Source of the DNA: a virus
IMG/VR virus record: IMGVR_UViG_3300001341_000036
Coordinates: 1 to 28,932 of that record
Reading direction: 5' to 3' (one strand)
DNA: 28,932 nucleotides
In this document: positions 933 through 6,588 of the stretch, piece after piece
How the letters are laid out: each line of letters begins with the position of its first letter
Numbering within the stretch: the stretch's first letter is position 1
The notes under the pieces: generated by a model
Database searches by the model: none
What the model was told of the DNA's origin: nothing
The model's input: only the letters and a program-made list of their open reading frames with translations
Made by a program: the position numbers and the translations under genes

Positions 933-962
933 TCTCAGACCGTGCCAACCGATCAGAGCCCC

Positions 963-1457
963 ATGACCGCCGCCCAGGCAGAAGCTGAGCTGGACAAGCT
1001 CACGCCGAAGCAGCGCGAGTTTATGGAACTGGCGTGTAGGCCGGGCGGGATCACAACTAAGGAAATGGCCTTGGAGCTGGCAATCTCACCCAGCGCGGTC
1101 GATCAGCGCGCCAATGCGGCCCGCCTCAAGCTTGGTGTGCATGATGGCAATACCGCCGAAGCTGTGCGGATCTATATCGCGCTCAAGGCAGCCTGTGGGG
1201 TTTCTACAGGTGTGATTTCACAGGTAGGAAAGCCGGCATCTTTGATCGATGAACCGTGGCGTGACGACGAGGTGGAGAACCAAACTCTCTCGCTTCCGAG
1301 TCGCAGGGTTTCGATCAATCACCTGAACAACCGCCGTAGGATTTTGGCGATACCACTAATAGCAATTGCTGTGATGTCCGCCGTGATGGTGGTGGTCGCA
1401 ATGGCAGTCGCTCTAGCTCCCGGAGTGAGCAAATTGGTGGTGCTGTTCGGAGGTTGA
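963..1457 (+). CDS. LuxR/GerE-type HTH protein with C-terminal membrane anchor
   Basis: This 164-aa protein begins with a GerE-like DNA-binding domain at about residues 11-62. It has LTPKQREFMELA, then ITTKEMALELAISPSAVDQR with the typical recognition helix. A variable linker follows. Near the C-terminus, after NNRRRILAIP, there is a single hydrophobic helix of about 25 residues. The topology implied is HTH in the cytoplasm with the chain tethered to the inner membrane by its end. There is no receiver or ligand domain. Small LuxR-HTH proteins with a terminal membrane segment are familiar from sphingomonads, but their function is not established as far as I know. The ATG at 963 is preferred; a GTG at 942 would add seven residues, and neither has a strong ribosome site. 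It probably regulates its own cassette. Confidence 0.75.
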   Translation: MTAAQAEAELDKLTPKQREFMELACRPGGITTKEMALELAISPSAVDQRANAARLKLGVHDGNTAEAVRIYIALKAACGVSTGVISQVGKPASLIDEPWRDDEVENQTLSLPSRRVSINHLNNRRRILAIPLIAIAVMSAVMVVVAMAVALAPGVSKLVVLFGG

Positions 1458-2729: not shown

Positions 2730-3221
2730 ATGCTGCCCAATTTCAGTGATCCCGGCATCCTAATGGTGTGGATTATAATCCTCACAACAGTCCTGTTCGG
2801 CTTGGTTGTCGACGGATGGACGAAGCGCCTCAGCCCCGAGCGCATGGCAAGCCTTGGCACGATTGCGGTGATCGCACTGCAGACGGCGTTGATCCAACCA
2901 ACCGGCAGGGACTTCGATGGCCGAGACTTCGACGCTTGGGCTGCCGACATTGCTATGTTCTTGACGTATGCGCTGTTGATGGTCAGCGCGAACCGGAAAT
3001 GGCCAATGTCTGCAGCAGCGTTTCAGCTGATGGCCATCGGCACGCATTTCGTCATGGTTTCAACGCCTAACATCAATGCTTGGGCGTGGGCTCAAATCAA
3101 TTTTGGCTGCTCTTTGGCCGCAACACTTTCTCATTTTGGCGGTTGCCTGAACTCCGCATTGAGGCGCTATCGCGGTGAGGCTATTCCTGACTGGGCTCCG
3201 TGGGCTCAGCGCCGACCATAG
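2730..3221 (+). CDS. Multi-pass membrane protein, paralogue B
   Basis: This 163-aa protein begins MLPNFSDPGILMVWIIIL and has about four membrane helices, with the motifs NRKWPMSAA and IGTHFVM. It resembles the protein at 1814-2344 in length, helix pattern and the N-terminal MLP(D/N)F(T/S)(E/D)P motif, so the two arose by duplication. Its basic end (LRRYRGEAIPDWAPWA) parallels the paralogue's LRRDGYDPDF. The last 41 bases overlap the 3' end of the opposing gene at 3181-3633. No known family is recognised. Confidence 0.75.
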   Translation: MLPNFSDPGILMVWIIILTTVLFGLVVDGWTKRLSPERMASLGTIAVIALQTALIQPTGRDFDGRDFDAWAADIAMFLTYALLMVSANRKWPMSAAAFQLMAIGTHFVMVSTPNINAWAWAQINFGCSLAATLSHFGGCLNSALRRYRGEAIPDWAPWAQRRP

Positions 3222-3633
3222 GCGCATCAAATACCTCGATCGCAGACGTAAAGAAGAAGATCGCCAGCGCGAGGCCGGCCAGCACTATTGTGTAGCCAGC
3301 AGCCAAACCGAACATCCAGGTGATCCGTGCCTGGATAGGGTGATCCTCCGCCCATTGCCGCCAACCTGGCAGGACCTCTAATCGAGCATCCGGCTCCGGT
3401 ACGGCATCGGGATTGATCGGCTCCAGATCGTAGTCATCGCGAAACGCAGCCTTCAATCGGTAGAGACTGTAGATCCCATAAGCATCTTTGACCGCGTTCA
3501 CGTGATGGCTGACGGTGGATTTGGAGACGCCAAGGAGTTCTGCCGCATCCTGATAGGTGTCGGTTTCGCACACGCGAATCATCACGTCGACTTGACGCTC
3601 AGTTAGATCAATCTGGCCTCGGTCGTTGGCCAA
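3181..3633 (-). CDS. LuxR/GerE-type HTH protein with C-terminal membrane helix
   Basis: This 150-aa protein has a GerE-type HTH at about residues 9-60: LTERQVDVMIRV, then YQDAAELLGVSKSTVSHHV. A Pro/Asp-rich linker follows, then one strong membrane helix at about residues 108-130 (GLAAGYTIVLAGLALAIFFF) and a short acidic tail. I chose a TTG start at 3633 because a GAGAGG ribosome site lies about five bases upstream. It has the same plan as the protein at 963-1457, but from the opposite strand and facing it across the membrane cassette. An ACCTGTAC copy lies 17 bases upstream of its start codon, which would fit autoregulation. Its membrane tether suggests response to an envelope signal, as inference. 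Confidence 0.75.
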   Translation of the reverse strand: MANDRGQIDLTERQVDVMIRVCETDTYQDAAELLGVSKSTVSHHVNAVKDAYGIYSLYRLKAAFRDDYDLEPINPDAVPEPDARLEVLPGWRQWAEDHPIQARITWMFGLAAGYTIVLAGLALAIFFFTSAIEVFDAPMVGAEPTEPSQE

Positions 3634-3812: not shown

Positions 3813-4061
3813 ATGACCGAGCAAATGACCGGGTTTGTGATCAGCCAAAGAGGCGAGGCACGATTGAACAACCTCGTTACCTGCCTGCGCGCCGTGGCGA
3901 GGCCCATTGCGGAGGCTGAACACAATGACGACGCGATACCCATCAGCGGCATAGAAGCCTCTGCCCTGCTCGATATGGCTGCGGACGCGATCGAGATCGA
4001 ACTGGCCAATGCCGGCTTCACGGTCGAGCCCGCGCCCGTCAAATTCGAACGGCTCGGCTAG
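3813..4061 (+). CDS. Hypothetical protein, 82 aa
   Basis: An acidic, mostly helical protein of 82 residues with Ala/Asp/Glu-rich helices (SALLDMAADAIEIELANAGF). An AGGAA ribosome site lies about nine bases before the ATG at 3813. A GTG at 3741 in the same frame would add 24 residues, but it sits beside the operator repeats. It is transcribed away from the minus-strand HTH gene and could be under the same operators. It ends with a TAG that overlaps the opposing lysis gene's TAG within one CTAG. No family is recognised. Confidence 0.55.
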   Translation: MTEQMTGFVISQRGEARLNNLVTCLRAVARPIAEAEHNDDAIPISGIEASALLDMAADAIEIELANAGFTVEPAPVKFERLG

Positions 4062-4423
4062 ATAAGGCCAAGGAATTTCGGCTCGGCGCGCTTAATCGCC
4101 TCGGCGTCGCGCTTCTCACAACGCTCCTGACCTTCAATGATCGCCTGCTTCTCTTCGAATTCCTGGCGCTTCGCTGCGGTCTGCGCGATGCCAAAGACCC
4201 GCCATCGATCAGTAATTTGCTCGACCCAAGCTGTGTAGGCTTCGGTGTTGCGATCGGCGTCTGGCTTTTCAGGCAATTGCGGCAGGGATGCACCAGGTAC
4301 CGCGTCCTTGAGTTGAGAGGGAATGAGGCCTGAACAGGGGGCCTTGTCGGTTATGACCGGCGGAGAGGTGATGCACCCAGCCAGACATGCGGACAGCAAA
4401 GGTAAAATGGTGAGCCGTTTCAT
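4058..4423 (-). CDS. Candidate outer-membrane spanin (Rz1-like lipoprotein)
   Basis: This 121-aa protein starts with a lipoprotein signal: a basic N-terminus, a hydrophobic stretch and the lipobox LAGC at about residues 13-16, so it should be lipid-anchored at that cysteine. After it come a Pro-containing segment (SGLIPSQLKDAVPGASLPQLP) split by charged residues, then a long charged helix. It starts at ATG 4423, which overlaps the preceding stop as TGATG, with AAGGAAG upstream. The upstream partner is a membrane-anchored coiled-coil protein, the normal order for Rz/Rz1 spanins that fuse inner and outer membranes at lysis. It is longer than lambda Rz1 (60 aa), so the role is likely but not certain. 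Confidence 0.55.
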   Translation of the reverse strand: MKRLTILPLLSACLAGCITSPPVITDKAPCSGLIPSQLKDAVPGASLPQLPEKPDADRNTEAYTAWVEQITDRWRVFGIAQTAAKRQEFEEKQAIIEGQERCEKRDAEAIKRAEPKFLGLI

Positions 4424-4773
4424 CACTCTTCCTTCTCACAATAGGCAGGATCGATCTCGCACATGGCCGCTGCAGCCAGCGAGTCCTTCTCGGCCTGGGT
4501 CTCAGCAGCGCTTATCGCCGCCTCTGTGGCCTCCACGACGCCCAGGTGTCGCTCCCGCGTCGCCTCGATCTCGGCGAGGTCTTCGAAGGCGTCCTGCGCA
4601 TTGCTGACGGCCGCGCCAGCACGCTCCGTCTCAATGTCTGCAATTACCTCTGTGTTGCCTACGATGAGGTCGCGCACAAAGCTTACAACAAGAACAACCA
4701 AGACGACGGTGATTAGGGCGCTGATGATGCGGCCGAGCGGGGTCAGCCCTTTGAAGAACTTGATCACTGGCAT
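4423..4773 (-). CDS. Candidate inner-membrane spanin (Rz-like)
   Basis: This 116-aa protein has one N-terminal membrane helix (IISALITVVLVVLVVSFV). An Ala/Glu-rich periplasmic coiled coil follows at about residues 40-100, ending in an acidic tail with two cysteines. This is the plan of an i-spanin, which bridges the inner membrane to the outer-membrane lipoprotein after the cell wall is cut. It sits between the desaturase-like gene, with which it shares a TGATG junction, and the lipoprotein gene, again with TGATG. Spanins diverge too fast for sequence-only identification; topology and order are the evidence. Confidence 0.55.
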   Translation of the reverse strand: MPVIKFFKGLTPLGRIISALITVVLVVLVVSFVRDLIVGNTEVIADIETERAGAAVSNAQDAFEDLAEIEATRERHLGVVEATEAAISAAETQAEKDSLAAAAMCEIDPAYCEKEE

Positions 4774-5303
4774 CAGGGTGTCTCCAGCTTTGTCACCGGA
4801 CGGATTCCGATCAGCGCGAGGCCGCGCTCAAGCCAATACCAGAATCGGATCAGTTCAAGCCAAGGGTTGAGCCAACCCGACAACGTGCAGTAGTGTGTCG
4901 TCATGCTTCCCCGGTGGTGGCGAGAATGCTGAGCGGGCCTTTGGAAGACACCCGTCTCCTGCAACGCCGATATCCATGCGGGACGAACAGCCTTGTGCGC
5001 CCAGGCATGGGTCTCATTGGCAAGACAGCCGCCTATCGTTGCGGCAAACCACGCCCAGGAGAAACCGAACGCTGCTAACCAGGCGAGCGATATTGGAGCA
5101 ACGGCCAACCAGGTGGTCCAGCTACGATCGAAGAATGAGCTGGCGAGGAATGCCTGCGGATCTGAGTGGTGCAATTCGTTGGGCGCCCCCACCAGAGCGC
5201 CTAGCAAGGGTGTGTTGCTGGTGATGAATTGGTCCTCGAACCAGTGAACGACACCGGAGAGAAAGTCCGCGATGAGCCAGCCAGTGAGCAGGAGCAGGAT
5301 CAT
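4773..5303 (-). CDS. CarF/PEDS1 (Kua, TMEM189)-type lipid desaturase-like protein
   Basis: This 176-aa membrane protein matches the lipid desaturase domain of plasmanylethanolamine desaturase (PEDS1/TMEM189) and bacterial CarF. The histidine motifs occur in family order: GVVHWFEDQF (H20), ELHHSDP (H45, H46), ETHAWAHK (H99, H103), HSRHH (H126, H129, H130) and THYCTLSGWLNP (H137). In known members these histidines bind a di-iron centre that makes the vinyl-ether bond of plasmalogens. Hydrophobic helices lie at about 1-20, 60-95 and 145-165. I chose the ATG at 5303 because a GAGGGAG ribosome site lies seven bases upstream and it overlaps the endolysin stop as ATGA; an ATG at 5333 has no such support. 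Its place between endolysin and spanins is unexpected. The fold call is strong; the substrate is unknown. Confidence 0.88.
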   Translation of the reverse strand: MILLLLTGWLIADFLSGVVHWFEDQFITSNTPLLGALVGAPNELHHSDPQAFLASSFFDRSWTTWLAVAPISLAWLAAFGFSWAWFAATIGGCLANETHAWAHKAVRPAWISALQETGVFQRPAQHSRHHRGSMTTHYCTLSGWLNPWLELIRFWYWLERGLALIGIRPVTKLETP

Positions 5304-5896
5304 ACCGAAACTCCCTCGATCGAACCCCACCATTCACGAACATCAAAGCAGGGGCAGGCTTTTGCGACACCTGGGTGATCGTTATGTCCAAGCACCTCGG
5401 CGGAGGGATAAGCGCATTTCAAGCCGCTCACCAGGCGAGCCATGGCGTCTTTCTGAGCGGCGGTTCTGGTGTCTTTGGGGTTGCCATTCGCGTCGAGACC
5501 GCCTGCATAGACGATCGCGATCGCACCTTCGTTGTGGTGGCGGACATGGATGCCGGTAACATCTTCATCGAGTCCGCGCTCGATCGTGCCATCAAGCTTG
5601 ATCAGGTAGTGATAGCCGACACGGCTCCAACCGCGGCCGTGAGGTTTGGGATCGGTATGCCACCGCGTGACCTCTTCAATGCTGACATCGCGACCTTCTG
5701 GCGTGGCAGTGCAATGGATGACGATGCGATCAATGTTGCGGCCAGTGCCCTGGACCAACGGGTCAGATGCGATGGCGGCTGTGTCGTCGCCGAGCGCTTC
5801 GAGCGCCTTGCGGGCGGTTTGTGGGCCGAACTTGCCGTCGACAGTGGCGCCGACGCGGCGCTGCAGCTGCCTGGTTAGTTCGCGCAATTCAGACAT
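5300..5896 (-). CDS. N-acetylmuramoyl-L-alanine amidase endolysin
   Basis: This 198-aa endolysin has an N-terminal peptidoglycan-binding-like helix bundle (VGATVDGKFGPQTARKALEA, residues 15-34). An Amidase_2 (T7 lysozyme/PGRP-like) domain follows from about residue 55. Zinc ligands and active-site residues can be matched to T7 lysozyme: H61 in VIHCTA, Y95 in VGYHYLI, H171 in GHNDH, K179 and C181 in KACPCFDV. The enzyme cuts the bond between muramic acid and L-alanine. There is no signal peptide, so it needs a holin; two small membrane proteins lie directly upstream. A GAGGAG ribosome site precedes the ATG by eight bases. Confidence 0.93.
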   Translation of the reverse strand: MSELRELTRQLQRRVGATVDGKFGPQTARKALEALGDDTAAIASDPLVQGTGRNIDRIVIHCTATPEGRDVSIEEVTRWHTDPKPHGRGWSRVGYHYLIKLDGTIERGLDEDVTGIHVRHHNEGAIAIVYAGGLDANGNPKDTRTAAQKDAMARLVSGLKCAYPSAEVLGHNDHPGVAKACPCFDVREWWGSIEGVSV

Positions 5897-5947: not shown

Positions 5948-6223
5948 TCAGTTAAAGAGCGGGCAGGTCTCACGGCGCTTGCGCCACACCCAAAGGAACG
6001 CAAAGACAAGCATCGCAACATGGGCGGTGTCGAATATCCAGCGGAAGTGGGGCAGCATCGCTGGGTCAAACCAGAACAGCATTCGGCCGGTGCCGAACAG
6101 CATGACGGTTACAGCAAGCAACCAACACATCCAGCGATCGATGCCGTCCCTGTCAATCGAAGCCGCGTGCCATAAAAGCACCAGCGATGCCGGAAGATAG
6201 AGGAGCCAAATTAATTCGATCAT
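5948..6223 (-). CDS. Small three-helix membrane protein, holin candidate
   Basis: This 91-aa protein has about three hydrophobic helices and a basic end (WVWRKRRETCPLFN). I chose the ATG at 6223 because it overlaps the preceding stop as ATGA and follows GAGGAGAGGG; the frame also runs further upstream through the neighbouring gene, which is less likely. Size, helix count and position just before the endolysin fit a class I-type holin, but holins cannot be identified from sequence alone. Confidence 0.6.
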   Translation of the reverse strand: MIELIWLLYLPASLVLLWHAASIDRDGIDRWMCWLLAVTVMLFGTGRMLFWFDPAMLPHFRWIFDTAHVAMLVFAFLWVWRKRRETCPLFN

Positions 6224-6588
6224 TGGCCCTCTCCTCGTTTCCAGGGCAGGGACATGTTGCCGCTCGCTGCTCGGCGGGCGAGCCACGGCGAAGCGAGTCC
6301 TGCAACCCCCATTACCAGCGGCAAGGGCAATGCAGAGACCCAACCGATCCACGCACCGCCTGCAGCGAAGTGAGGGTGTGCCATCCCGGCAAACGCACCA
6401 ATCACCATCGCAACGACAACGGTTAGGGGTAGCGTCAGGCGTTCGGTTGGTGGACTCACAACCATGCCGACAAATCCTCCCGCCACCGCAAAGAACATGC
6501 CGGCGACGATATACGGCCAGGGCGCGGCAAAGCCGAGCGCCCCGGTGATCAGCGCCATATAGCCGCTGAACTTGGCTTCAGGTATCAA
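6220..6588 (-). CDS. Small multi-pass membrane protein, holin or antiholin candidate
   Basis: The protein has about four hydrophobic helices (for example PYIVAGMFFAVAGGFVGMVV) and a short charged end. Two starts compete. A TTG at 6588 has a GGAGAG ribosome site five bases upstream and lies 67 bases after the tail-fibre gene, giving 122 aa. An ATG at 6675 has no ribosome site and overlaps the previous gene by 20 bases, giving 151 aa. I prefer the TTG. Its neighbour at 5948-6223 is coupled by ATGA. Together the two look like the membrane part of the lysis module. Confidence 0.6.
   Translation of the reverse strand: MIPEAKFSGYMALITGALGFAAPWPYIVAGMFFAVAGGFVGMVVSPPTERLTLPLTVVVAMVIGAFAGMAHPHFAAGGAWIGWVSALPLPLVMGVAGLASPWLARRAASGNMSLPWKRGEGQ

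Follow-up and report, generated by a model that had tools for sequence, protein, structure and literature searches.

What a gene of a lipid desaturase family is doing among the lysis genes of a phage, and whether it makes plasmalogens, takes part in lysis or serves another purpose, is the question raised by this locus. The DNA analysed (hereafter, the window) is a single IMG/VR virus record of 28,932 bases. The first-pass annotation had placed the reading frame and its overlaps correctly but omitted the strand, and the gene is encoded on the minus strand (Table 1). It overlaps the amidase gene by exactly four bases (5300-5303) and the next gene by exactly one base (4773), and its translation appears to be coupled between the endolysin and the inner-spanin candidate. 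Translation could also begin further upstream, at 5333, but this start lies inside the endolysin gene. The plus strand across the same interval is interrupted by stops. A promoter and terminator scan across the operon yielded none exceeding the shuffled expectation.

Table 1. Coordinates of the desaturase gene, its key codons and the adjoining lysis genes in the window
Feature	Position	Strand	Remarks and basis
PF10520 lipid desaturase gene, 176 aa	4773..5303	-	ATG at 5303; Pfam, dN/dS, AlphaFold
Shine-Dalgarno GAGGGAG	5311..5317	-	7 bases 5' of ATG at 5303; sequence
His20 codon (mouse PEDS1 H96)	5244..5246	-	alignment and published numbering
Asp24 codon (mouse D100)	5232-5234	-	four residues past His20; alignment and published numbering
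Asn42 (F118 equivalent)	5178-5180	-	alignment
His45-His46 (mouse H121-H122)	5166..5171	-	alignment
Ser55 (H131 equivalent)	5139-5141	-	alignment
His99 ... His103 (mouse H187, H191)	4995..5009	-	alignment
His126..His129-His130 (mouse H215, H218, H219)	4914..4928	-	alignment
Endolysin, N-acetylmuramoyl-L-alanine amidase	5300..5896	-	PF01510, phrog_822; upstream, 4-base overlap
Inner-spanin candidate, 116 aa	4423..4773	-	one N-terminal TM, then helical; downstream, 1-base overlap
Outer-spanin candidate	4058..4426	-	lipoprotein signal LSACLAGC; sequence
Holin candidate, 91-aa membrane protein	5948..6223	-	upstream of endolysin; predicted TMs and position
Holin candidate, 122-aa membrane protein	6220..6588	-	three predicted TMs; TTG start uncertain

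The spanin assignments are plausible: the inner-spanin candidate weakly matches an Rz-like spanin family (phrog_214, E = 0.0011), and the relative of the outer-spanin candidate on contig L003 weakly matched spanin families. Neither holin candidate matched any family in the profile searches. Elsewhere in the window, the reading frames at 942-1457 (plus strand) and 3181-3633 (minus strand) appear by eye to encode a LuxR-like helix-turn-helix followed by a C-terminal transmembrane segment, and their products may be membrane-anchored regulators.

The desaturase gene is under purifying selection. One contig (L002) is 100% identical to the window across 10,199 bp, and the independent contig L003 carries the same operon at approximately 80% DNA identity with a desaturase relative that is 93% identical. 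The dN/dS of the desaturase gene between the window and L003 is 0.067, which is lower than the values for the endolysin gene (0.149) and for the two spanin candidates (0.168 and 0.145). Because this relative keeps the operon at such a dN/dS and a second contig is identical, the window gene represents more than a chance reading frame. A shadow ORF or an artefact is ruled out by the dN/dS, the two contigs and the Pfam match. The 122-aa holin candidate shows a conservation that is extreme for a small membrane protein, with a dN/dS of 0.004 against L003 (approximately one non-synonymous change at a dS of 0.95).

The window protein matches PF10520 (Lipid_desat) over residues 9-169 with 127.3 bits (E = 8.3e-37) in the Pfam search, against a gathering cut-off of 26.4 bits. 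The eight family histidines (H20, H45, H46, H99, H103, H126, H129 and H130) and Asp24 are all present, and their spacing within each motif equals that of mouse PEDS1 H96, H121, H122, H187, H191, H215, H218, H219 and D100, of which the histidines are essential for catalysis (PMC7149458) and D100 is likewise essential (PMC8960569). Therefore, the claim of the first-pass annotation that a PF10520-family gene with an intact metal-site signature lies within an endolysin/spanin operon is supported, whereas the full CarF/PEDS1 histidine series that it had reported is incomplete by one residue, the ninth histidine (mouse H131), in place of which stands Ser55. The eight histidines and the aspartate are invariant across 37 aligned phage and bacterial relatives and are retained in 127 of the 130 sequences of a larger set; the exceptions are L143, in which one histidine of the last motif has been lost, and L144 and L145, in which the aspartate is replaced by glutamate. 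The phage copy on L143 (416-958), with its last motif reading HGRLH, is possibly a decayed one. No family for the desaturase protein was found in PHROGs, nothing matched in a plasmid search, and a PDB sequence search with either the single protein or the family profile gave no meaningful match.

The conservation of the metal ligands bears on a second suggestion of the first-pass annotation, namely that the protein might act in the membrane without an enzymatic role. It could, for example, be a holin or antiholin substitute that has retained the desaturase fold. It is indeed a small multi-helix membrane protein, and the holin of the cassette is matched by no family model. However, the ligands are strictly kept in nearly all relatives, including those from phages in which a recognisable holin adjoins the gene, which makes a non-enzymatic function scarcely credible.

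The AlphaFold model of the protein, computed with 35 relatives in the input, has a pLDDT of 93.9 and a pTM of 0.87. Its best fold match in the PDB is the sphingolipid fatty-acid hydroxylase Scs7p (TM 0.48, probability 0.95), a link that is merely suggestive because the Foldseek E-value is 0.12. The top viral fold match is a lipid desaturase of a giant virus (Harvfovirus A0A3G5A308, E = 1e-6), which infects eukaryotes, and the two proteins are 26% identical. Together with a sub-threshold FA_hydroxylase match in Pfam (27.2 bits against a cut-off of 31), the resemblance to Scs7p raises the possibility of a di-iron oxygenase, either a hydroxylase or a desaturase, that acts on a sphingolipid, hopanoid or carotenoid instead of on glycerophospholipid acyl chains. 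We consider this unlikely, given that PF10520 outscores FA_hydroxylase by 100 bits and that the characterised PF10520 members are glycerophospholipid desaturases.

The first-pass annotation had further linked the protein specifically to plasmalogens, as would be expected if it were a true plasmanylethanolamine desaturase of the PEDS1/CarF type with vinyl-ether lipids as its product. The aerobic bacterial plasmalogens known so far are largely myxobacterial, and the ether-lipid substrate is therefore expected to be missing in a typical host. The window protein resembles PEDS1 (TMEM189) and CarF as a membrane protein of the same Pfam family with equally spaced essential residues, but it is shorter and phage-encoded. 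It also matches the NCBIfam CarF equivalog model (NF045946) with an E-value of 6.6e-22, but the score of 78.2 bits is far below the cut-off of 500. The ninth histidine (CarF H113) is conserved in PEDS1/CarF only and is absent from FAD4 and alphaproteobacterial members, and F118, another residue important in PEDS1, corresponds to Asn42 in the window protein (PMC7149458, PMC8960569, PMC9131029). Asparagine occupies this position in 122 of the 128 sequences scored, and in nearly all of the branch to which the window protein belongs; a PEDS1 mutant at F118 has 6% activity. In addition, alphaproteobacterial and plant homologues fail to complement carF (PMC9131029). A histidine at the H131 position was found in one of the 130 sequences, which by inspection is the protein of a huge phage (LR756511.1, 595 kb; L005 4989-5447). 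Because alignment inspection reveals the equivalents of both F118 and H131 in this PF10520 protein, the residue test is able to discriminate; the huge-phage protein is a candidate for a true plasmalogen-type desaturase. Plasmalogen formation by the window protein is disfavoured by the residues, the equivalog score, the failed complementation and the expected lack of substrate, and we regard it as very improbable. Since the eight histidines and the aspartate are kept and the PEDS1/CarF-specific features are absent, the protein is best described as a PF10520 protein of the desaturase type that is distinct from PEDS1/CarF.

Another parallel is plant FAD4, the delta-3-trans phosphatidylglycerol desaturase, which we compared by its published description. 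FAD4 also belongs to PF10520 and has the eight histidines without the ninth, but it is reported to have F118 as PEDS1 does. It is a plastid enzyme that acts on phosphatidylglycerol with the assistance of the peroxiredoxin PRXQ (PMC12456178), whereas the window protein is encoded by a phage.

The gene orders around the relatives, determined with a simple gene caller of our own and family searches, address the role in lysis that the first-pass annotation had offered as an inference. Such an effector would desaturate inner-membrane lipids late in infection and thereby tune holin triggering or spanin-driven membrane fusion. The coupled position of the window gene is consistent with this idea, and placement in or beside a lysis cassette recurs in one lineage other than that of this phage and L003. 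In this independent lineage, the gene adjoins holin, endolysin and spanin-like genes: a phrog_2359 holin and a phrog_822 amidase were confirmed beside the desaturase gene in L062, with L117 and L118 placed by similar gene order, and a phrog_2359 holin and a phrog_7 endolysin were confirmed in L136 and L137, with which L139 was grouped (L136 also has a confirmed phrog_65 tail terminator downstream). L153, L155 and L138 have endolysin genes at a distance of a few kb on the upstream side. Most of the relatives, however, are found among other genes, namely PhoH and portal genes (L004, L065 and L144), head-tail genes (L010, L151, L152, L154 and L158), baseplate genes (L142 and L157), terminase or portal genes (L140 and L169), a trypsin-like protease gene plus HNH/terminase or head genes (L011, L013, L053, L057 and L080), or genes for a nucleotide kinase and a PQ-loop protein (L058). 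The PHROG tallies of 148 neighbours consist mainly of packaging, head-tail, tail and HNH families, and no lysis family is present among the 25 most frequent neighbour families in either set.

Of some eighteen distinct contexts, we count only about two in which the gene genuinely belongs to a lysis cassette or immediately adjoins one, and adjacency to lysis genes is thus not consistent across the PF10520 relatives in phages. Because most relatives lie with packaging, head-tail, baseplate or nucleotide-metabolism genes, the adjacency to lysis genes is lineage-specific. A literature search for lipid desaturation linked with holins found nothing relevant, and at this late stage of the cycle an enzyme may remodel bulk lipid too slowly. 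A lysis role is therefore possible in the cassette-bearing lineages but is not general, and as an explanation of the window gene it seems to us improbable. That lipid desaturation sets holin triggering or aids spanin fusion in the phages that keep the gene in the cassette, which would make it a fourth kind of lysis factor, is a rather more doubtful proposition.

Several features of these neighbourhoods deserve mention in their own right. In several phage lineages (L011, L013, L053, L057 and L080), the desaturase gene is immediately preceded by the trypsin-like protease gene, and there are five PF13365 matches among the neighbours. The small membrane protein of the PQ-loop type in L058 (6507-6782) is encoded directly 3' of the desaturase gene and fits, by its sequence, the sole PF04193 match among the neighbours. 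In L044 (4926-5849), and at a similar position in L026 (4918-5847), a gene shortly upstream of the desaturase gene encodes a product bearing a thioredoxin-like CxxC motif, which may be of relevance in view of the peroxiredoxin that assists FAD4. The neighbour set contains one PF13899 match.

At least 116 different IMG/VR contigs (our own count from the viral scans) encode relatives of the window protein, and in a phage collection two further sequenced phages carry one. One of these is Erythrobacter phage vB_EliS-L02, whose protein UIS25202.1 is annotated as hypothetical; it is 43% identical to the window protein and has the same catalytic residues, but its gene lies between PhoH and portal genes and not in a lysis cassette. 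The phage copies form 39 clusters at 80% identity, and a maximum-likelihood tree places the window copy in a clade of 22 clusters that consists of phage sequences only (support 97/94), nearest to L148 and L153 (support 93/85, not starred), which are Mu-like in appearance by gene order. PF10520 was found above cut-off in only five of 385 genomes sampled from the class to which an Erythrobacteraceae MAG belongs, once on an apparent prophage contig; the copy of that MAG clusters with L008, which lies among head-tail genes and hence in an apparent prophage. A recent capture from a host gene is ruled out by the long branches of the phage-only clade and by the few genomes of the class that have PF10520. 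The clade of the window copy thus appears to have been phage-borne for a long time. The host is probably an alphaproteobacterium: a tail protein of the window is similar to the J proteins of Caulobacter phages (32%), which suggests a phage of the Caulobacter type, and relatives of the desaturase are present in phages of Erythrobacter, which suggests a phage of that kind.

Classical desaturases of cyanophages were reportedly described as phage-carried genes by Roitman in 2018. Further ones were found in Arctic viruses, and these membrane desaturases, like the protein studied here, are carried by phages and are viewed as modifying host membranes (PMC7300359). Those of PMC7300359 are, however, modelled on stearoyl-CoA desaturase, have other histidine boxes, do not belong to PF10520 and have no reported placement in a lysis cassette. 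The literature searched (most subscription journals and preprints lay outside it) contained no account of PF10520 genes in phages, and the phage desaturases that we found described all belong to the classical stearoyl-CoA type. PF10520 would therefore be a second, unrelated desaturase family carried as cargo by both metagenomic and isolate phages, here in an unusual position within a lysis cassette.

Family membership, catalytic residues, purifying selection, translation signals, the phage-only clade and the varied contexts are best accommodated, with a probability that we put at roughly 60%, if the gene is late-operon cargo encoding a phage-borne di-iron PF10520 lipid desaturase that alters host membrane lipids. 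The product would be a working integral-membrane enzyme of the type without the CarF/PEDS1-specific histidine, translated along with the late lysis operon. Using oxygen and electrons supplied by host donors, it would most likely desaturate host phospholipids by creating a double bond in one of their acyl chains, and late in infection the membrane may thereby differ in packing or in oxidative stability. The benefit to the phage could lie in membrane fluidity, oxidative stability, a change of the envelope or the tuning of lysis. Against this explanation, no electron donor gene adjoins the desaturase gene in the window, the F118 equivalent is asparagine and the fold link to Scs7p has a poor E-value. 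The gene has the attributes of an auxiliary metabolic gene, being non-structural, widespread on phage contigs, under purifying selection and of a host-metabolism enzyme type, and its product is more likely to be a late-expressed modifier of host membrane lipids than to be dedicated to lysis or to make plasmalogens. The site between lysis genes would then be one of several late-operon places where phages put desaturase cargo.

These results caution against naming PF10520 matches in bacteria and phages plasmalogen desaturase or CarF by default. They also suggest that the alteration of host membrane lipids is a commoner phage strategy than current annotation indicates, and the recurrent placement of the gene in lysis cassettes makes a link from lipids to lysis directly testable.
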